This document shows positions 3,082-17,374 of a DNA stretch of 34,602 bases, piece by piece. Positions within the stretch are counted from its first letter, which is position 1; each line of letters opens with the position of its first letter. The translations under genes and the position numbers were made by a program. The notes under the pieces are model-generated. The model saw only the letters and a program-made list of their open reading frames with translations. It searched no databases and had not been told where the DNA came from. Source of the stretch: a virus; the IMG/VR virus record IMGVR_UViG_3300049845_000147, positions 1 through 34,602 of that record; one strand, given 5' to 3'.

Positions 3082-3543
3082 TCATTCTCCTAAAAACATT
3101 GCCGAATTAGACGGCGTTTCACGAACTTCAACTTTACGAACTTTTACTCTATCACCGTATCCGTTATCAGGAATCCAAATTTCTCTCAAATAGTCGAAAA
3201 GAAACTTTGCTAGACCCTCACAACCAGTTTTCTCAACCACAACCATTTTTATCAATTTCTTGTTATGCATTTCCTCAAACAATTTGAATTCTGGGTCATC
3301 TTGAGCAACTAAACATGTATGATCGAAATGATCTTCCAAAAAGTCTTTGAATGATTTTAGACTACCAAAATCAACACACCAATTTCTTGCATCTAGGTCA
3401 TTTTCATCACATTCGAACTCGAGATGAAATCCCAAACTGTAGCCATGAATCAAACGACAATGAGACTCGGCACGCCATTGACGATATGCAACAGCAAATC
3501 CTCTTTCAGCAGTATATGTTTTAGTCGATACAAACTTACCCAT
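3082..3543 (-). CDS. queD: QueD-like 6-carboxytetrahydropterin synthase, 153 aa
   Basis: QueD converts dihydroneopterin triphosphate, the FolE product, to 6-carboxy-tetrahydropterin, the second step of 7-deazaguanine synthesis. The sequence has SHCRLIHGYSLGFHLEFE (residues 27-44), a WCVDFGSLK segment (55-63), DHFDHT (71-76) and a C-terminal KVEVRETPS strand that should bind the pterin. Length fits the family. Two positions that are zinc-binding His in E. coli QueD appear as Tyr here (AYRQW at 19-23 and HGY at 33-35). I recall the same pattern in other phage relatives, so this may be a distinct subfamily. The gene follows the U32-like gene with one base between them. Its substrate would come from folE at 15119-15802. 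Confidence 0.85.
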   Translation of the reverse strand: MGKFVSTKTYTAERGFAVAYRQWRAESHCRLIHGYSLGFHLEFECDENDLDARNWCVDFGSLKSFKDFLEDHFDHTCLVAQDDPEFKLFEEMHNKKLIKMVVVEKTGCEGLAKFLFDYLREIWIPDNGYGDRVKVRKVEVRETPSNSAMFLGE

Positions 3544-8149: not shown

Positions 8150-9052
8150 TCAAAACTCCTTGTACGGGTTGCCCACGTTGAACACCTTCAAACCAAGTTC
8201 CATCCAACGACGACACATAACTGGTCGGTCATCAACAACCGCAATTACGTTGTACTTGTGAGCAACATGGGCCCAGAACAGTTCTTCCTTGATTTCAGCA
8301 TCTTTACGCATATCACCTGCGGTACGCATAAACATTTCATCGTAGAAAATGTTGTTATCGGCAAGCCATTTGGCAGTCTTTTCGTAGCACACACCATCAC
8401 GGCCCGACATAACAATCATTCGGATTCCTGCATCTTTAAATCCCCAAAACATGGCTGCAACAACAGAATCGAGATCATCGAGATCGACTTTATCCCAATC
8501 GAACGCACCACGCTTACCATTCATATGAGCAAGAGTACCATCAACGTCGAAAATGATTGCAGCAGGCAGCGAAGTGTCTGCAAGATACTTCTTGCGACCA
8601 ACATATTCGTTCCACTGTTCCATCTGCTTGTAGATAATATCGTGACCAACACCGTCAGCTCGACCAGCATCACGCTTCCAAGCTTCTTCAAGTGTTATTG
8701 GAAAGTCTTTCACCTCAACCTCAAATCCCATATCTTGCAGCCGGGAAATAAGGTCAACTCGAAAACCTTCCTTTAAGTTGGTGTCAGCCACAATGATGTT
8801 GCGTTTCCATTCAGCGGCTTCAGCCATTGCATAGTTCATTCGATCATTGACGATATTTTCATCGCGCCACTTCCACATCTTCCACAGCTCACCGGCCGCA
8901 AGAGGGCGCTTGAGTTTTTCCTCAAGAATCTGGCGCCGGAAATCATCACGGGAAATTACTTTCCAAGGCGAAGGGTTGTTAATCCAAGCAAAGTTCTTTG
9001 CCCAGGTCGTCTTACCTGACGCAGAAACACCAACAGTTACAATTGCTTTCAT
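8150..9052 (-). CDS. pseT: T4-type polynucleotide kinase/3'-phosphatase, 300 aa
   Basis: The enzyme phosphorylates 5'-OH RNA or DNA ends and removes 3'-phosphates, preparing cleaved tRNAs for ligation. The N-terminal kinase shows the P-loop GVSASGKTT (8-16) and SRDD (34-37). The C-terminal phosphatase has the DxDGT motif FDVDGTLAHMNG (D169, D171), SGRDG and a late VDDRP. The length matches T4 Pnk (301 aa). It is encoded just below RNA ligase 1, its partner in repairing tRNA cut by host anticodon nucleases. The ATG overlaps the C2H2 gene stop. Confidence 0.95.
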   Translation of the reverse strand: MKAIVTVGVSASGKTTWAKNFAWINNPSPWKVISRDDFRRQILEEKLKRPLAAGELWKMWKWRDENIVNDRMNYAMAEAAEWKRNIIVADTNLKEGFRVDLISRLQDMGFEVEVKDFPITLEEAWKRDAGRADGVGHDIIYKQMEQWNEYVGRKKYLADTSLPAAIIFDVDGTLAHMNGKRGAFDWDKVDLDDLDSVVAAMFWGFKDAGIRMIVMSGRDGVCYEKTAKWLADNNIFYDEMFMRTAGDMRKDAEIKEELFWAHVAHKYNVIAVVDDRPVMCRRWMELGLKVFNVGNPYKEF

Positions 9053-9165
9053 TCATGGTCCTTTTCAAGATGTTCTATAAATGCAAGTTTACCTCTAATT
9101 AATGCAACACAATGCGGGCAATGATACCATCCGTTCGGTTGGGTTGTAATAGTATAGAACCTCAT
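9049..9165 (-). CDS. 38-aa single C2H2 zinc-finger protein
   Basis: A complete small gene fits exactly between two others with four-base overlaps at both ends. After MRFYTITTQPNGW it has HCPHC, then twelve residues, then HLEKDH: C-x2-C-x12-H-x4-H, a classical C2H2 finger. A one-finger protein could bind DNA, RNA or a protein partner. The overlap with both neighbours and the intact finger make it convincing. Confidence 0.72.
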   Translation of the reverse strand: MRFYTITTQPNGWYHCPHCVALIRGKLAFIEHLEKDHE

Positions 9166-9353
9166 TTCTTTTCCTCAAAATATCCACACTCACAGTATTT
9201 GCAACCAACCGGATACATATCTTCGTAAGTGTCAAAATGTCGATAATACGGATGACCACAAACACACATTCGATCATCACCGTATTCTGGGTTGTAGTGT
9301 CTAACAACTTTAACTGTGGTAACCGTTTCCTCGATATAAGGTTTATCGCTCAT
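9162..9353 (-). CDS. small zinc-ribbon-like protein, 63 aa
   Basis: The C-terminal half holds CVCGHPYYRHFD then GCKYCECGYFEEKK, giving a CxCGH...C..C.C pattern expected to bind one or two zinc ions. The N-terminus TVTTVKVVRHYNP is probably a beta strand. Similar small cysteine-rich proteins occur in many phages; function is unknown. The start is the ATGA overlapping the rnlA stop. Confidence 0.72.
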   Translation of the reverse strand: MSDKPYIEETVTTVKVVRHYNPEYGDDRMCVCGHPYYRHFDTYEDMYPVGCKYCECGYFEEKK

Positions 9354-10465
9354 ACAAATCGCTCCAAAAGTTTAACACGTTGCGAAACCTCCATTGATTT
9401 ATACGCATGTTCTGGTGTAACACCATCTTTTCGTGCTCTGAACAAGACAGGTGCTGTCATTGAATCTTTCACTGCCAAAGCAAAATCTTTTTGTGTTTCA
9501 AGGTGCTTTGTTGCATCATACACAACCGCAGCGGTTTCCAACAACTCGGCCATAGCCATTTCAACTGGCTCGATAAATTGCTTATACTCAGGAAAGTATG
9601 CAAGCAATTCGTCCTGTTCATTCTTCGCAACCAGTTCAAGAAGGTTATTCATTGTTGGTGCGCCATTACCACGCATCTGATGCACAAGAACATAATGCGA
9701 CGACTTACATTTGATGCGCTTGCTTGTGTTGTAATCCTGCACAACAAAACCTTCTTGCAAGTTGTCAAGCGACTCAGCCAATGCACGAAGTTCGTCACCG
9801 TTCTTAACTTGATATGTCTTTGGCATACGAACATTCATACCGACATTGTTGAACCGGTCGCAATAGTGCCGCAATGCGCCAGGCGGTTCTTCCCAACCAT
9901 CCAAACATACGATAGCCAACAACACCATTTTTGGTTCTGGATACGGTGTAACAATCCGGTTGAATGGAGAAATATATTCCATAACATACGTCGAGTCTGT
10001 CGGAAAAGTGAGCATTGCAGACTGAAACTGATCTTCCGTCAACTGCATAGCCTCAAGAATCGCTTCACGAAAAGTGCAGTTAGTCTTTGTGCCCCAGACG
10101 TGGTTTGCTTCCGCGAAACCAGTTCCACGAGTCGAAATCTCCCAACGGTTAGTCTGTGGGCACCAATATACTGGGCAAAGCGAACCATCAGCCTTTTCCC
10201 AAACGGTGCAATTGGAGAAATCGAAGTCGAGAGTATCAGCTTCACCGTAATTGAAGAAACGGTTAAATGCACGTGACACAATGTTCGCGTCGGAATCGAG
10301 CTTTAATGCTCGGCATTCCATAACAACAGGATGCATTTTTGGTGATTCAATCATAGAATAGTTCAGCACGCGTAGGCCATTGTCGTACTCACGAACCTCG
10401 ATAAACAATTCTTCCTTGAGTGCGTTCCAACCACGTTCTTTTATGAACTTCTGAACTTCCATCAT
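9350..10465 (-). CDS. rnlA: T4-type RNA ligase 1, 371 aa
   Basis: The enzyme joins 5'-phosphate and 3'-OH RNA ends through an enzyme-AMP intermediate and restores cleaved tRNA. The nucleotidyltransferase motif KADGS is at 91-95 (Lys91 is the adenylated residue). ISTRGTGF (motif III region), EGFVVQDY (motif IV) and RIKCKSSHYV (motif V, KxK-like) follow. Length is close to T4 Rnl1 (374 aa). The first of two ATGs is used because it overlaps the preceding stop by four bases. Encoded with pseT, it suggests that hosts carry PrrC-like or other anticodon nucleases. Confidence 0.95.
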   Translation of the reverse strand: MMEVQKFIKERGWNALKEELFIEVREYDNGLRVLNYSMIESPKMHPVVMECRALKLDSDANIVSRAFNRFFNYGEADTLDFDFSNCTVWEKADGSLCPVYWCPQTNRWEISTRGTGFAEANHVWGTKTNCTFREAILEAMQLTEDQFQSAMLTFPTDSTYVMEYISPFNRIVTPYPEPKMVLLAIVCLDGWEEPPGALRHYCDRFNNVGMNVRMPKTYQVKNGDELRALAESLDNLQEGFVVQDYNTSKRIKCKSSHYVLVHQMRGNGAPTMNNLLELVAKNEQDELLAYFPEYKQFIEPVEMAMAELLETAAVVYDATKHLETQKDFALAVKDSMTAPVLFRARKDGVTPEHAYKSMEVSQRVKLLERFV

Positions 10466-10626
10466 TTACTTTTTCTCCCGATTTTGTTTGCTAATTCAGC
10501 ACGATCATTCTTCAGTTTGGCCAGATTTTCATCATACCCGCCTTTGGGATAGTCTTGATGAATCTTCTCGAAGGCACTAATGAGGCGGTCGAGCTCCTTC
10601 AATTCACGCTTCATCTTTTTACTCAT
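10462..10626 (-). CDS. short charged helical protein, 54 aa
   Basis: A 54-codon frame begins MSKKMKRELKELDRLISAFEK. It has heptad-like leucine spacing in two stretches and a basic C-terminus (NKIGRKSK), so it is probably a small coiled-coil dimer. Its stop is fused to the rnlA start (ATGA). It lies two bases after the AT-hook gene, in whose promoter unit it belongs. Function unknown. Confidence 0.65.
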   Translation of the reverse strand: MSKKMKRELKELDRLISAFEKIHQDYPKGGYDENLAKLKNDRAELANKIGRKSK

Positions 10627-10628
10627 TT

Positions 10629-10832
10629 TTAGAGCAAACCAAATGCTTTATACATATCTGGATTTACGAAAAATTTACTACCCTCAGACGATTCATCTTT
10701 TCTGGGTCGGCCTCGCTTACTTCTTTTGACGACTTCGACTTTGGTTTGAATTTCATCACCATCCTCATTCACCTCCATTTGTCGGCCATAAGTCCCATAA
10801 TGAATGTGACTCCCTACGATATATTGACTCAT
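10629..10832 (-). CDS. small AT-hook protein, 67 aa
   Basis: The central stretch VKRSKRGRPRKDES contains the AT-hook core RGRP flanked by basic residues, a minor-groove DNA-binding motif. The rest is short and without other domains. It is the first gene behind the promoter at 10866-10895, with GGAG about nine bases before the ATG, so it is probably expressed early. A DNA-binding regulator or nucleoid-altering role is inferred. Confidence 0.68.
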   Translation of the reverse strand: MSQYIVGSHIHYGTYGRQMEVNEDGDEIQTKVEVVKRSKRGRPRKDESSEGSKFFVNPDMYKAFGLL

Positions 10833-10865
10833 ATTTTGATCTCCAAACTATATTGGTGTTCATTC

Positions 10866-10895
10866 ATTGTAACACAAAAATTAACCAAAAATCAA
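10866..10895 (-). promoter_or_regulatory. sigma70-type promoter for the RNA-repair operon
   Basis: TTGATT (10890-10895), an 18-base spacer and TACAAT (10866-10871), in the 76-base gap between the glycosyltransferase and AT-hook genes. It would drive the AT-hook gene, rnlA, pseT and the following small genes. Confidence 0.7.
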
Positions 10896-10908
10896 TAATT
10901 GATGTAAC

Positions 10909-12015
10909 TTATTGATCTTTAGTCATTTTTTCTAGCATTTTTTCCATTGGAGTGTTGATGTACTTGGTTGCATACTTAGTCACGTCGAAAGTCGAACCCA
11001 TCAACCTTTCAATTTTCGACACAATCTCGTCCTCGTCATTGAACAACAAACGCGGATCATCCTCAACCAATTCTGGATGTGATAGTGCATTCCTTAGCAT
11101 AGGATAGGTGTTATACACCAGTGCCTCGGCAATACAATAACCAAAATTTTCTTCAATACTGTTACTGAGCATAACCTTGCTCTCAGCCAAAGCTTTATAA
11201 TATTCATATTTTGTTAGTCCAGAATAAACCGAAATTACGCCGGCCTCTTCTAGAGCACGAGCATAATCAACCAACCATTGCTTATTAGACTTAAATTCTT
11301 TCCTGGATGTTGTAACAATGATCTTCCAATCTGGATGTTTTCTTTTTAAAACAATTGCAAAATCTAGACTAAGGTTCGGTCGTTTCTCCCAATCGAATCT
11401 ATTTGAAATAATTATTTGGTTCCTCTTTTTGGAGGAAAACTCTGGGAACTCATTACTAAAAAGTGGATTTCCAGTAACAACAATTTTATTTCTGATTTCA
11501 TTCTTCTGTTTTGTCAATGCTAACGGAGCAACACGACGAGAGTAAAACGCATCTTTGTGATATTGAGATCCCACAAAAATACCATCACATGCTACTGCCC
11601 AACCAATTTCTGTATATTGCTGATATGGTTCTGCAATAGCAAATGCATCTTGAATTGTGTATGATGCTGCATGTAGAAAAGCGTAAATTCTAATTTTAAC
11701 TTTGTTCATATCCGCCATCAAACGCAGACTTTCCAACCCCCAAAATTCCATATCACCAAAAAAGAATATACTACCATCTTTAACTTGACCGTTATGGAAC
11801 AAACTTGCGATCTTTATGAACTGACTATTTTTATATGCAATGGTTGAGTTAATATCAAGGAAAGTACCAACACCAACATGATTAGATAACGGAGTTCCAT
11901 CAATCACTTCAACATCATAACCCGCGTCACGAAAATCTACTGGGAAATTGTCATACCATTGTTTTGTGTATCGCTCTTCCAACGGTTCAATTGGTACATA
12001 ATATAGTTTAGTCAT
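10909..12015 (-). CDS. GT-B glycosyltransferase (GT4-like), 368 aa
   Basis: The C-terminal half has the GT-B nucleotide-sugar domain: NRFDWEKRPNLSLDFAI, an alternating strand-helix pattern, and SIEENFGYCIAEAL, the E-x7-E motif of GT4 retaining enzymes. The N-terminal half binds the acceptor. T4 modifies its DNA with glucosyltransferases. Here the gene closes the folE-dpdA operon and overlaps its neighbour by eight bases. A role in adding a sugar to 7-deazaguanine DNA is a fair inference. The acceptor is not proven; surface polysaccharide or protein glycosylation are alternatives. Confidence 0.8.
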   Translation of the reverse strand: MTKLYYVPIEPLEERYTKQWYDNFPVDFRDAGYDVEVIDGTPLSNHVGVGTFLDINSTIAYKNSQFIKIASLFHNGQVKDGSIFFFGDMEFWGLESLRLMADMNKVKIRIYAFLHAASYTIQDAFAIAEPYQQYTEIGWAVACDGIFVGSQYHKDAFYSRRVAPLALTKQKNEIRNKIVVTGNPLFSNEFPEFSSKKRNQIIISNRFDWEKRPNLSLDFAIVLKRKHPDWKIIVTTSRKEFKSNKQWLVDYARALEEAGVISVYSGLTKYEYYKALAESKVMLSNSIEENFGYCIAEALVYNTYPMLRNALSHPELVEDDPRLLFNDEDEIVSKIERLMGSTFDVTKYATKYINTPMEKMLEKMTKDQ

Positions 12016-12451
12016 CTAAAATTCCTTTCAGCGGCACGTCACTAGAAAATTCAACCGGTGCAGTATATATCATCGAACTCTTTTGAATTGAATACACGTT
12101 CAGTTCTTTTTCAAATTTAATTTGGTCTTGACCCCTTAAATTCCAAAAAGAACCACATTGCACATAAAGCATGACATTGATATAAAACGGGGCTCCATGA
12201 AACACAGTTCTTTCTACAGTGATCCGTTTCTTTTGTGCTGCTAATATTTCCAATTCCTGGCAATACAAGTCAAGAAAATTATCGTGATCACAAATATAGA
12301 TTTGTTCAACTTCCATTCTAAGAATCTTAACAAATGCTTTATTTGGGCCAGGGTCGTTTTTCTTACTGATAGCGGCAGACATCTCATCACTATCTAAAAA
12401 TAATGTTCTAAGACCTTTAAACTCACCTTCACACTCTAATCCAATTTTCAT
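12008..12451 (-). CDS. unknown protein of the DNA-modification operon, 147 aa
   Basis: The sequence begins MKIGLECEGEFKGLRTLFLD and contains IYICDHDNFLDLY, an INVMLYVQCGSFWNLR segment and DQIKFEKEL. There is no radical-SAM cysteine motif, P-loop or SAM-binding motif, so it is not QueE or a recognisable methyltransferase. The balanced beta/alpha pattern suggests a compact domain. Its ATG overlaps the PIG-L/T-fold gene stop by four bases and its end overlaps the glycosyltransferase start by eight. It is therefore translated with both and is likely to share their pathway. Confidence 0.65.
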   Translation of the reverse strand: MKIGLECEGEFKGLRTLFLDSDEMSAAISKKNDPGPNKAFVKILRMEVEQIYICDHDNFLDLYCQELEILAAQKKRITVERTVFHGAPFYINVMLYVQCGSFWNLRGQDQIKFEKELNVYSIQKSSMIYTAPVEFSSDVPLKGILDD

Positions 12452-13260
12452 ATCATATACTCACAAGTGCAACCACATTCTCCATCTTCAGAAATCTCAA
12501 TTATAAGCTTTCGTTTATTATAACGTTTACCTATAATAAATGCAAGTTCATCAGCCAACATCTCACAACTCTTAAAGTCTAATTCTAATGTTCCGTCATA
12601 TAACGACTCCAACCAATTTAGAAATTGATGGAACTCAATTTCTCTATCAGAATGCGAAACTTCAATTGACACTTTAAACTTAAAAAGATGCCTGTGCTTA
12701 TAAGATAAGTAATTTACATCTTGTAGTGTTGGACTAATTGCAGCTTTATCAAAACGATGAAAACCTTTTCGCTGGAATGTGACCCAAATCATTTTCAACA
12801 TGTCTTCTTCAACAAGCGATTCAAACAAGTAATATTTTTCATTCGTAAAAAGTGCTTGTTGACTTGGAAAAAGATTGTTCAACGCAATCTTCTTCCGAGC
12901 CTGTTCCATCAAACTCAATACATCAAACCTACCGACCATATCAACTGAATAATATTTCTTTTTGTTGCTAAGGCTTTTAGCTAACCGATTAATCTCTTTG
13001 TGATGTGGATGGTTATCAGAGATATTCGGAGCCAAGATAATAACATCAGAGGGAATGTTAAGGGCAGAACTAGCAACTTGCCCAACAAAAATTGGTTCAA
13101 AACCATAATGTGCCGCACAATTAATTGCCTCAGACTTTCTTGCATCTGTTATGTCATAGAAATAATAAACTTTTGACACAACTCGCGATTCGAGTAATCT
13201 GAAACAACCAATAACCTCATCATCAATGTGAGGTGCAAAAATCACATACTTATCACTCAT
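12448..13260 (-). CDS. PIG-L-type deacetylase fused to a QueD-like domain, 270 aa
   Basis: The N-terminal domain has APHIDDEVIG (9-18) and NHPHHKEI (83-90). These are the two zinc-binding motifs of the PIG-L family, which removes acetyl groups from N-acetylglucosamine-containing compounds. From about residue 155 a second domain begins: GFHRF, then KHRHLFKFKVSIEVSHSDREIEF (188-210), KSCEMLADELA (230-240) and IIEISEDGE (253-261). It resembles a QueD/T-fold-like domain, but this assignment is tentative. The start MSDKY overlaps the PP-loop gene end by eight bases; a longer upstream form would lie inside that gene. A deacetylase next to a glycosyltransferase suggests processing of an attached N-acetyl sugar. 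Confidence 0.8.
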   Translation of the reverse strand: MSDKYVIFAPHIDDEVIGCFRLLESRVVSKVYYFYDITDARKSEAINCAAHYGFEPIFVGQVASSALNIPSDVIILAPNISDNHPHHKEINRLAKSLSNKKKYYSVDMVGRFDVLSLMEQARKKIALNNLFPSQQALFTNEKYYLFESLVEEDMLKMIWVTFQRKGFHRFDKAAISPTLQDVNYLSYKHRHLFKFKVSIEVSHSDREIEFHQFLNWLESLYDGTLELDFKSCEMLADELAFIIGKRYNKRKLIIEISEDGECGCTCEYMI

Positions 13261-13843
13261 GTGTCTTTTTCCATTTCCAAGAATCATACTCGCCGTTTTT
13301 TCTATATTCGTCACTAAATGGTAGTTTAAAGAAATGTAGATAATCAAAAACGTCTTCATCTGACCAATCTAAAATTGGATAACAAATATTCAAACCAAAA
13401 ATACCATTAGGTTCAAATTCGTTCATCAAACTGCGATTTACATTTTTACCATCTCTAATAATATCAGAACTTTTTCCCGGACGACTTGCTTCAGCTATTC
13501 TTGCGCCATCAATTTGACAACGCAACCCATTAGCAACAACAAACTCGGGCATTTGACTAGAGTGCATAAAATGAACCTTATAGTTTCTACAGACAGTTTC
13601 ATAAAGAAAAACTAATGTTTCTGGATGCATTTCTGTCAAAGCAGCAACTGGATCACCACTAGTACCTAACATTGGTTTGACGTTATGTACCACCCTAACA
13701 TCATCACCGAAAACACTTTTCGTTAAATGATGAATAACACATGAGTCTTTGCCGCCTGAATGACCAACAAAAACCTCAGACAACGCAAAACCACAGTAAT
13801 TAAAAATTCTATCTTTGGCCTGCAAAATCTTCTTAGTTTCCAT
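13253..13843 (-). CDS. PAPS-reductase-like PP-loop ATPase, 196 aa
   Basis: The PP-loop SGGKDS (29-34), following VFVGH, identifies an N-type ATP pyrophosphatase. PILDWSDEDVFDYL near residues 156-169 is characteristic of the PAPS reductase/ATP sulfurylase/DndC branch. The zinc-binding cysteine cluster of QueC is absent, so it is probably not the preQ0 synthase, although it could replace it. Relatives activate substrates by adenylation in sulfur or nucleobase chemistry. GAGGAG lies in the dpdA end, about ten bases before the ATG. Operon position makes a role in the modification pathway likely. Confidence 0.78.
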   Translation of the reverse strand: METKKILQAKDRIFNYCGFALSEVFVGHSGGKDSCVIHHLTKSVFGDDVRVVHNVKPMLGTSGDPVAALTEMHPETLVFLYETVCRNYKVHFMHSSQMPEFVVANGLRCQIDGARIAEASRPGKSSDIIRDGKNVNRSLMNEFEPNGIFGLNICYPILDWSDEDVFDYLHFFKLPFSDEYRKNGEYDSWKWKKTHE

Positions 13844-13844
13844 A

Positions 13845-15122
13845 TTAAAAGAACTCCTCTAAGGTTGCAAATTTTTCTTTATTCCTAACTGTTTTAGAAG
13901 GAACATGCCGCCCTGCGTGCCTCATCCAACTATTATAATCTTCTACTGTTTTTATTTTGGATAATGCAAAAAGGTTTTCGGGCTCTACACCTCGAATGAT
14001 GTTGGTGATATACTTTTCATCAGCCATCATTCTTTCTGTCGCTTTCATTGTTTCATTTACAGAATACAACATAAAAGCATAAGCTGTTGCATTCCGTTCC
14101 AACATTCTTGCTGTACTAGAACCATACTTATCAGTCCATTCCAAATTAGATCGAATGATGACCATATAAAAATCATCTTCCGTCATATCAAATTTAAGTA
14201 CATTCTTACTGAAGTCTGCAATTTTTTCATATGCAAGATGAAATTTAGGACAGCGAGTCCTTCTCAACTGAACAATTTGAGAATCTTGCTGATATTGGCC
14301 TCGAATGACACCACCAGTGTGTTTTGTCGAATCATAAGAAAAAAGCATATCATCAGTGAAAAGGCCTGACCTACGAAATTGAATTGCAGGTATCAATCGG
14401 TTCATTGCACCAACACCCAGTAAATGGACATGTTTACTAATATGTTCTGGTATATCCAATTGTGTTAATGTGAATGCTCTCTCAACGTCTTGTAACAACC
14501 CATTACCTAATGAGAAGGAACTACTAGATATTCCACCAATGTACTTCCAATATTTTTTCGGAACCTCATTAATGATAATATCTGTCCATTGTTTATACGT
14601 CTCCATACAATTACCTTGAATAATCATCAAAGGTTTGCATTTCGACTTTTCTTCCAAATACACTTCAATCTGTCTTGTTAAGTTCTTACCAGATGCTATT
14701 GCACAGTCCCTAATCATAGATGGATCAAAGTACTTTGTTCCCATATCGTGGATTTCTGCACGTTCACCGATAATTTTGACAGGTATTTCATCGAATGACA
14801 TACCAATGGTTGCATATTTGGCTTGAATTCTATAAATTTTATCTTTGGCCTCATCTGTGATACTTCCATGAGCCAGAGTCATCATCTGCAAACCACCAGA
14901 GTCTGCCTGCACTGTGTATTTACCAAAAACATCAACAACACTTTGCACTGTTGATTTTTCAGTATATGCATTGAATAGAACACCATATTTGTGGTTAGGC
15001 CACTGTGCAACCATTCTATCAGTCATGTCGACCAACTTATCACACAGATCAGGAGCATTAGTTCGATCAAATGTGTTTTTATGAACGAAACTAAGTCCAC
15101 TTGCTATATATTCAAAAATCAC
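13845..15122 (-). CDS. dpdA: DpdA-like DNA 7-deazaguanine transglycosylase, 425 aa
   Basis: The protein belongs to the tRNA-guanine transglycosylase superfamily. It shows QADSGGLQ (72-79, with nucleophile or base-binding Asp74), SFDEIP (109-114), IIQGN (167-171), YIGGIS (194-199), HLLGVGA (233-239) and FSYDSTKHTGG (261-271, second Asp at 264). DpdA enzymes exchange guanine in DNA for a 7-deazaguanine base. Phage DpdA proteins have this size and divergence. The start is GTG, sharing GTGA with the folE stop; no in-frame ATG lies nearby. A tRNA target is possible but less likely given a phage context with folE and queD. Confidence 0.85.
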   Translation of the reverse strand: MIFEYIASGLSFVHKNTFDRTNAPDLCDKLVDMTDRMVAQWPNHKYGVLFNAYTEKSTVQSVVDVFGKYTVQADSGGLQMMTLAHGSITDEAKDKIYRIQAKYATIGMSFDEIPVKIIGERAEIHDMGTKYFDPSMIRDCAIASGKNLTRQIEVYLEEKSKCKPLMIIQGNCMETYKQWTDIIINEVPKKYWKYIGGISSSSFSLGNGLLQDVERAFTLTQLDIPEHISKHVHLLGVGAMNRLIPAIQFRRSGLFTDDMLFSYDSTKHTGGVIRGQYQQDSQIVQLRRTRCPKFHLAYEKIADFSKNVLKFDMTEDDFYMVIIRSNLEWTDKYGSSTARMLERNATAYAFMLYSVNETMKATERMMADEKYITNIIRGVEPENLFALSKIKTVEDYNSWMRHAGRHVPSKTVRNKEKFATLEEFF

Positions 15123-15802
15123 GACCTGTAACCTTTCATACCTTGTAGCAAGGAGAAAAATTCATCACGAAGTTTAGGTTGATCCCTCAATGCACCACGC
15201 ATAACACTTGTCACCATATCAGATTCATGTGCCTTCACACCTCTATGCGTCATACACATATGTTCAGCTTTAACAACAACTGCAATTCCTTCTGCATCAG
15301 TAATGCGCTCGATCTCGTTTGCAATTTGCACTGTCATTTCTTCTTGAATTTGTGGTCGAGACGCAATATGATCAACAATTCGATTAAATTTACTCAAACC
15401 AATTACATTTTTACCAGGGAAAACACCGACCCATGCACTACCAACGATATTTTGAAAATGGTGAGCGCAAGTGCTTCTAACATCAATTGGCCCAACAATA
15501 TAAAGTTGGTCATATGATTGAGCGTTTGGGAACGATGTAATTTTTGGACTTGCAACATATCGACCAGAGAATATTTCTTTGATGAACATTTTTGCAACTC
15601 GACGTGCTGTGTCGTGTGTGTTGTGATCATTGTCTGTGTCGATAACAAGAGATTCTAAAACGGCTTGCATCTTCTCTGCAACTTCCTCTTGCAGAAGATG
15701 TAGCTCATTTTCGTCTTTAATGAAATCTGAGATATTATCATTACACAAAAATCTTCCGTTCGCGGTTTTAATGCGAGCAGTAATGGTGTCAGATATTGAC
15801 AT
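15119..15802 (-). CDS. folE: GTP cyclohydrolase I, 227 aa
   Basis: FolE converts GTP to dihydroneopterin triphosphate, the first step of both folate and 7-deazaguanine synthesis. The zinc ligands are seen in STCAHHF (C112, H115) and HMCMTHRGV (C183). VGVFPGKNVIGLSKFNRIVD (125-144) is the family signature, and HDTARRVAKMF matches the conserved N-terminal part. Length is as in E. coli (222 aa). AAGGAGA precedes the ATG. It is the first gene behind the strong promoter at 15830-15858 and overlaps dpdA by four bases, tying it to DNA modification. Confidence 0.95.
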   Translation of the reverse strand: MSISDTITARIKTANGRFLCNDNISDFIKDENELHLLQEEVAEKMQAVLESLVIDTDNDHNTHDTARRVAKMFIKEIFSGRYVASPKITSFPNAQSYDQLYIVGPIDVRSTCAHHFQNIVGSAWVGVFPGKNVIGLSKFNRIVDHIASRPQIQEEMTVQIANEIERITDAEGIAVVVKAEHMCMTHRGVKAHESDMVTSVMRGALRDQPKLRDEFFSLLQGMKGYRS

Positions 15803-15829
15803 ATTTTCTCCTTATTCTATTGGAAATAC

Positions 15830-15858
15830 ATTATGACACAAGACGTATATTATGTCAA
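15830..15858 (-). promoter_or_regulatory. sigma70-type promoter for the folE-dpdA operon
   Basis: A consensus TTGACA (15853-15858), a 17-base spacer and CATAAT (15830-15835) stand 28 bases above the folE start. It suggests expression by host RNA polymerase from the start of infection, so modified precursors could accumulate before DNA replication. Confidence 0.85.
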
Positions 15859-16636: not shown

Positions 16637-17374
16637 TTAGCATTCTCCATATTGATTAAAATAACCTTCGATAACACTTTTGTTTTTCCCTTTTGCTGCA
16701 TATGTCACACCTTCGGTAAAATGATGAACAAAAGGTTCTAACATTTTACAATGGTAATTGGTACCACCAATCATTCTGAACTCGACATAATTGTAATGTA
16801 ACTTTGAAACATTTATTGAAACATACTTATCTGTGATCTCTTTTGAGACTCTTTGTGCATACTTATATTCATCGTTTATCCAGTCTCCGTATGCACTGGA
16901 ATTTATCAGTACAGTTGCATTATCAATCATCTTTTCATTTTTGTCAAACTTCTCTGATCTATTTATCTTCTTCCACAGTTTATCGAAATAAAACGTCCAA
17001 GACAAACAGTATGGGTTATCAGCACGATTGAATGTGTTTCCGATTAAGGCCTCATCTGTTACAGATATTAGGGTTGTAGGATCAAATTTATTCATATTCG
17101 TTTCTGATACATTAACGTGAAAACCGCAAGAAGTGTTAGTTCTTGCGTCTGTGTTAATCAAGTATGATTGAACTGTCCTTAAAGTCTTAAATGCTTTGTT
17201 AGGTGACTCCGGCGGAGTTATAATTTCCCATCGATTCCACCCATCACGTTTCAAGCACTTTTCATCGTACCTAACTGATGGATCGACTACTATTTGGTAC
17301 TTTTTACCCAAATCATCAATAATTTCATCGTCATACAGTTGGTGCAAAAACTCAAACTCGAAACCAATTTTCAT
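16637..17374 (-). CDS. predicted amidoligase (ATP-dependent), 245 aa
   Basis: The N-terminus MKIGFEFEF holds the acidic metal-binding motif. WEIITPPESP (48-57) and TNTSCGFHVNVS (99-110), with the conserved GxHVH-like strand, are typical of the Amidoligase_2 family, distant relatives of glutamine synthetase and GshA-type ligases. A late VEFRMIGG contains the expected Arg. Such enzymes join an amine to a carboxylate at the expense of ATP. Phage examples are mostly uncharacterised. It is the first gene behind the promoter at 17413-17441 and near the DNA-modification operon, so it may ligate an amino acid or amine to a modified base; this is speculation. Confidence 0.72.
   Translation of the reverse strand: MKIGFEFEFLHQLYDDEIIDDLGKKYQIVVDPSVRYDEKCLKRDGWNRWEIITPPESPNKAFKTLRTVQSYLINTDARTNTSCGFHVNVSETNMNKFDPTTLISVTDEALIGNTFNRADNPYCLSWTFYFDKLWKKINRSEKFDKNEKMIDNATVLINSSAYGDWINDEYKYAQRVSKEITDKYVSINVSKLHYNYVEFRMIGGTNYHCKMLEPFVHHFTEGVTYAAKGKNKSVIEGYFNQYGEC

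Follow-up and report, generated by a model that had tools for sequence, protein, structure and literature searches.

Phages can exchange guanine in their DNA for 7-deazaguanines. In phages of the 9g and CAjan type (dG+, dPreQ0) as well as in bacterial dpd islands this is accomplished by DpdA, and to our knowledge all phage 7-deazaguanine bases known so far carry small groups at C7. A further enzyme type, DpdA2, was defined in Vibrio phage nt-1, the DNA of which was measured to carry dPreQ0, and was described as being without the conserved His196 of DpdA (Hutinet 2019, PMC6884629). For phage 6E351A dPreQ1 was found by mass spectrometry to amount to 15% of dG (PMC12028318). Of the enzymes supplying such bases, QueE yields 7-carboxy-7-deazaguanine (CDG) and QueC converts CDG to preQ0 (PMC6884629, PMC11888242). 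Here we analysed by computation a virus record of 34.6 kb (IMG/VR record IMGVR_UViG_3300049845_000147, positions 1 to 34,602; in the following the window), in which six genes on the minus strand (Table 1) encode FolE, a DpdA2-type transglycosylase, a PP-loop ATPase, a fusion of a PIG-L-type and a QueD-like T-fold domain, a small protein and a family 4 glycosyltransferase (GT4). Sequence comparisons argue that this operon very probably specifies a DNA modification pathway. The T-fold domain together with the glycosyltransferase (GT) appears to replace QueC, and the product is rather likely a glycosylated base derived from CDG.

The DpdA2/preQ0 phages (Vibrio nt-1 and 6E351A, Stenotrophomonas Ps15, Pseudomonas pf16) share with this system FolE, a DpdA2 of the same family, QueE and, in most of them, QueD. 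They differ by possessing QueC, some together with QueF or ArcS, and by being without T-fold and GT; no PIG-L or PP-loop gene of the cassette was detected near their dpdA. The 9g and CAjan type phages and the dpd islands have the DpdA-mediated exchange in common with the system but use another DpdA subfamily, end at preQ0, ADG or G+ and have no sugar enzymes. With the glucosyl-hydroxymethylcytosine of T4 type it would share the T4-like phage background and a glycosylated base as a shield, whereas base, synthesis (at the nucleotide level in T4) and glycosyltransferases are different. The initial annotation of the locus, made from its letters only, had stated that no phage base with this enzyme set is described, and none was found in the literature searched. 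Nor did this search, outside which Cui 2023, de Crecy-Lagard 2024 and Iyer 2013 remained, return any glycosylated 7-deazaguanine in DNA. Phage PA5oct is listed with a deazaguanine system, given there without detail (PMC7824862).

The initial annotation had placed the six genes in one operon and had proposed a neighbourhood search for their order in other phages. All six open reading frames (ORFs) are present, and the search returned homologues of all six in the same or nearly the same order in other phages. Since such an arrangement is far beyond chance, the six-gene operon is confirmed as genuine. A search at the DNA level provided a single short match in folE. With tblastn, Xanthomonas phage X1 was found to carry folE, PP-loop, PIG-L, the unknown gene, GT, dpdA2, T-fold and QueE in a row, with PIG-L and T-fold as separate genes. 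Subsets containing the T-fold were found in Acidovorax ACP17, Synechococcus BUCT-ZZ01, Pseudomonas Paride, Rhizobium RHph_I1_18 and Sinorhizobium Phosso. Scans of IMG/VR yielded at least 596 relatives of the T-fold and at least 374 of DpdA2. The usual order at DpdA2 loci is QueE-folE-DpdA2-T-fold-GT-QueD. A second locus type combines a DpdA1-like enzyme, named after the Paride protein, with the small unknown protein, T-fold and GT. T-fold and GT also go together with DpdA2 and with a TGT-like protein of a third kind.

We then compared the occurrence of QueC, which was counted with hidden Markov models (HMMs) on fetched loci of at least 15 kb length. Before removal of redundancy QueC was present in none of 91 T-fold loci and in all 7 DpdA2 loci without T-fold. 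After removal, 77 T-fold loci had QueC in 0 and GT in 68 cases, while 7 DpdA2 loci without T-fold had QueC in 7 and GT in 0 cases. Fisher tests on QueC and GT split by T-fold gave 2e-10 and 2.5e-6, values that are only a guide since the loci are not fully independent. In a DpdA2 tree (FastTree, midpoint root) the QueC type stands at no fewer than four separate places among the T-fold and GT types, from which the swap seems to have occurred repeatedly. Searches of whole records detected no QueC above the cut-off in X1, ACP17, BUCT-ZZ01, Paride, RHph_I1_18 and Phosso but QueE in all six; full-size records all carry QueE. Apart from partial matches in three records (G017, G021, W13), QueC above the cut-off was confined to the QueC-type phages, and T-fold and GT were absent from the records of the latter. 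QueC and the pair of T-fold and GT thus appear to be mutually exclusive. As CDG is the product of QueE and is converted to preQ0 by QueC, it is also the most likely substrate of the module.

Bacterial contigs of Magnetospirillum, Aurantimonas and Methylobacterium, in part large ones, also carry the trio of GT, T-fold and DpdA. In Magnetospirillum (L192, positions 8823-12905; also L193, L194, L197 and L204) the genes for GT, T-fold, DpdA1-like enzyme and QueD lie in a row. The trio may therefore be not only a phage device but also a host DNA modification system, or it may be of prophage origin. On a contig of Streptomyces specialis (L207, 9995 onward) a 317-aa ORF matches the T-fold profile with 1e-12, and no further gene of the module lies nearby.

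A QueC-less pathway could also end with plain CDG or 7-deazaguanine (dCDG, dDG) in DNA. In that case the T-fold would decarboxylate CDG, and the sugar enzymes would have other targets, e.g. host surface glycans. Work of Cui et al. from 2023 reportedly describes dCDG and dDG in phages, with a QueC-less pathway that stops at CDG or beyond it, and predicts DpdL as CDG decarboxylase; DpdL may or may not be the T-fold protein. We know of no glycosylation in these phages. If DpdL were this T-fold, its role would be partly known, and what is new would be the GT and the second cassette (see below). In line with a plain base, the T-fold retains its metal- and ring-binding residues, and the QueC-less phage Bipper was earlier suggested to carry CDG (Hutinet 2019, PMC6884629). 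However, the GT is tied to the T-fold as tightly as DpdA is (68/77 loci) and lies near each kind of DpdA, while it is absent from the QueC-type DpdA2 phages. A surface glycosyltransferase has no reason to track the exchange of QueC, and we consider a plain base unlikely.

The transglycosylase of the window (P0002) is 39% identical to the DpdA2 of nt-1 over 238 aa (E 1e-51), and the DpdA2 of 6E351A is among its matches (H37). Its best PHROG family (phrog_10773) is of unknown function, and a weak match to TIGR00449 places it in the superfamily of the tRNA-guanine transglycosylases (TGT). The active-site residues Asp74, Asp111 and Asp264 are invariant (90 of 90 members of the family). Its relatedness to the enzymes of DpdA2 phages whose bases were measured suggests DNA as the substrate, such that guanine in the phage DNA would be swapped for the 7-deazaguanine. 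If the enzyme acted as a TGT instead, a sugar-bearing queuosine-like base would be placed into tRNA. Membership in the superfamily and the tRNA genes of the phage would fit to this, and glycosylated queuosine is known from eukaryotic tRNA. The nearest measured relatives place the base in DNA, though (PMC6884629, PMC12028318), which makes a tRNA target improbable.

FolE and QueD of the preQ0 pathway are both encoded in the window; no match to QueC (PF06508) was obtained in this fragment. The zinc residues of FolE (Cys/His/His/Cys) are conserved in its homologues, as are the other motifs that the initial annotation had listed for the operon, namely the Asp residues of the transglycosylase, SGGKDS, the PIG-L motifs and E-x7-E of GT4. 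We envisage that FolE, QueD and a QueE encoded elsewhere make CDG from GTP, and that at CDG the pathway branches to T-fold and GT in place of preQ0. The T-fold domain would act on the side chain at position 7 of CDG, where decarboxylation or activation is a guess, and GT4 would attach a sugar to the base. Guanines would in the end bear a large and perhaps charged sugar by which restriction enzymes are blocked. As pterin pathways likewise employ FolE and T-fold enzymes and pterin glycosyltransferases exist, the operon could instead make a glycosylated pterin or another small molecule, with DpdA being incidental. Against this stand the QueE and QueD of the relatives, the DpdA of the two kinds sought that is present in 63 of the 77 T-fold loci, and the exchange of QueC for the module and back. 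A pterin product is the least probable of the explanations considered.

The fusion protein was modelled by AlphaFold2 (AF2) with a predicted local distance difference test (pLDDT) score of 89.6, and its two halves separate cleanly. The PIG-L half resembles BC1534, diacetylchitobiose deacetylase and BshB (Z about 14), the T-fold half PTPS/QueD (Z 11.5). Comparing profiles of the T-fold and the QueD families gave 93%. The zinc-binding His triad is found in 166 of 166 T-fold sequences and the Cys of the S-C-E motif in 160 of 166. Invariant is also the ring-anchoring Glu, by which the guanine-like ring is held in this family. The initial annotation had taken this domain as the QueD of a sugar-bearing 7-deazaguanine operon. 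Comparative evidence supports an operon for DNA modification that includes a decorating glycosyltransferase, but the domain was misassigned. The T-fold alignment (A1) contains neither a Cys before the HxH motif nor a conserved Asp-His pair, the catalytic residues of QueD, and the true QueD is a separate gene outside the operon. By its conserved residues the T-fold domain should bind a guanine-like ring at the metal and carry out a chemistry other than that of QueD. For the PIG-L half, 11 of 11 homologues carry His-x-Asp-Asp, followed by Glu or Asp, and His-x-x-His, and the Pfam score remains under the cut-off (17.6 vs 28.2). The PIG-L HMM was built on domains free of the fused T-fold.

PIG-L forms with the PP-loop protein, the small protein and GT4 a second cassette, which we found together in 16 records including some near-identical pairs, in 15 of them in this order on one strand. 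It accompanies DpdA2, a different TGT-like protein or a weakly matching TGT-like one. In one record (L090, 7812-9855) the T-fold is separated from the PP-loop cassette by a GT2-like glycosyltransferase and a protein of 403 aa, which perhaps serve extra decoration. The PP-loop protein scores above the PF01507 cut-off (27.6 vs 22.5), and the profiles closest to its own are those of CysD (1.3e-8) and FAD synthase (2.8e-8), both of which transfer AMP. SGGKDS is invariant in the in-operon family, and the protein is probably an adenylating enzyme. An assignment as QueC was rejected (profile comparison just 14.8%, CysD being nearest), and likewise one as thiolase, as no Cys is invariant among the 9 in-operon homologues. 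GT4 reaches 42.1 bits for PF00534 (cut-off 26.4) with a GT-B C-terminal domain. Its E-x7-E motif is conserved with Glu or Asp at the first position, and R15-Y16-T17 is nearly invariant in 143 homologues; matches in the PDB were uninformative about the sugar donor.

The small protein (P0005) was modelled by AF2 with a pLDDT of 91.2. The best of 998 PDB chains was E. coli QueE (6nhl, Z 6.1 over 116 aligned residues, next 4.5), which is under Z 8, the level below which a match may reflect a common arrangement, and Foldseek ranks QueE 46th. Since profile comparisons with QueE gave probabilities of 1.4-4.6%, a QueE detectable by sequence was dismissed and only the predicted fold hints at one. No CxxxCxxC motif and no invariant Cys are present in the 51 sequences of the family (alignment A7), which occurs also in DpdA1-type loci (54 loci). 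From the model a cluster-less derivative of QueE is likely but unproven.

We infer that this cassette adds an amino sugar to the CDG-derived base in DNA. After transfer of N-acetylglucosamine (GlcNAc) by GT4, the PIG-L domain would strip the acetyl group from the sugar, giving glucosamine (GlcN). The PP-loop ATPase would then adenylate a carboxylate or similar group, to which the amine could be joined. This proposal draws on analogy, as a GT4 and PIG-L pair serves in the synthesis of bacillithiol and mycothiol. These pairs, BshA/BshB and MshA/MshB, combine GT4 with a deacetylase of the same fold, yet their acceptor is malate or inositol rather than DNA and they have no PP-loop or T-fold partner. 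The amino-sugar details are tentative.

Several points weigh against a glycosylated base in DNA. Our literature search found no DNA chemistry measured for any phage with this module, and the acceptor of GT4 could be a molecule other than DNA. Decarboxylation of CDG by the T-fold would leave C7 without an obvious functional group to which the sugar could be attached. QueE is missing from the 34.6 kb fragment; every full-size relative has it. Partial matches to the QueC family just above the cut-off were seen in two module records (G017, G021), and three Vibrio and Aeromonas phages have folE and T-fold but no GT or known DpdA. The latter are Vibrio D479 (L187), Bakedbeans (L186) and Aeromonas Ahp1 (L185), each with QueE in the genome. 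In D479 a deoxynucleoside monophosphate kinase lies near folE and T-fold, so that the modification may be made on the nucleotide. On balance the glycosylated CDG-derived base, as set out above, is the explanation we favour, and it is probably correct as a whole. Somewhat more doubtful, at slightly below even chances, is that the module defines a widespread undescribed class of bases: CDG-derived 7-deazaguanines with an (amino)sugar, possibly linked as C7 C-glycoside or via the 7-carboxylate, made by a QueD-derived T-fold and GT4 in place of QueC with a cluster-less QueE-like helper.

If true, two phage disguises, base exchange and glycosylation, would be joined in one base. This would explain the hundreds of T4-like and giant phages with folE-queD-queE but no queC, and with the T-fold and QueE-like proteins enzymes of the pathway would have been recruited for a new chemistry. 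The prediction is testable on carriers available in culture (Xanthomonas X1, Acidovorax ACP17, Pseudomonas Paride and PA5oct, Sinorhizobium Phosso), and the enzymes could serve as DNA-labelling tools.

Table 1. Coordinates of the operon and of associated features in the window.
Feature	Position	Strand	Evidence
folE, GTP cyclohydrolase I (first step from GTP)	15119..15802	-	PF01227 1.7e-50; phrog_2197 3.6e-56; zinc residues conserved
dpdA2-type DNA-guanine transglycosylase (putative)	13845..15122	-	GTG start; likeness to nt-1 DpdA2; phrog_10773 4.7e-96
PP-loop ATPase, PAPS reductase/CysD fold, probably adenylating enzyme	13253..13843	-	PF01507 3.5e-6; SGGKDS
Fusion of PIG-L-type deacetylase (N-terminal) and QueD-like T-fold (C-terminal, about 12804-12448)	12448..13260	-	AF2 model, fold matches
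Small protein, QueE-like predicted fold, no radical-SAM cluster	12008..12451	-	AF2 model, PDB comparison
GT4 glycosyltransferase	10909..12015	-	PF00534 8.9e-11, above cut-off; E-x7-E
Sigma-70-like promoter ahead of folE (candidate)	15830..15858	-	TTGACA-17-CATAAT, 11/12
queD, true carboxy-tetrahydropterin (CPH4) synthase of the pathway, outside the six-gene operon	3082..3543	-	PF01242 2.8e-19; phrog_2389 7e-39

By gene content the record belongs to a T4-like myovirus (portal, major head protein, protease, sheath, gp46/47-type nuclease, late sigma factor, UvsY, helicase, RNA ligase, polynucleotide kinase). The gene overlaps of four to eight bases given by the initial annotation were measured as 4, 8, 4 and 8, while the single gap, between dpdA and the PP-loop gene, is 1 base instead of two. 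For the fusion gene the ATG at 13260 suits the overlap; a longer ORF-finder start, ATG 13359, lies upstream. The annotated near-consensus promoter has a TG before the -10 element and scores best among the 15 hits of the region. Since shuffled sequence yields 22.5 promoter-like hits on average, it is plausible but unproven. Searching a library of defence systems returned nothing beyond a weak BrxP match to the PP-loop protein.

Just upstream of the operon lies an Amidoligase_2 gene (PF12224, 1.8e-8; 16637-17374, minus strand). As a carboxylate-amine ligase it could be a further decorating enzyme; it was dropped as a part of the module, being common only to the closest relative (L088) and without a match in the phage records. 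ARAGORN predicts a tRNA with anticodon CTA (labelled Pyl) at 91-160 on the minus strand, which would read the amber codon, followed by tRNA-Ala (991-1066) and tRNA-Tyr (1323-1409).

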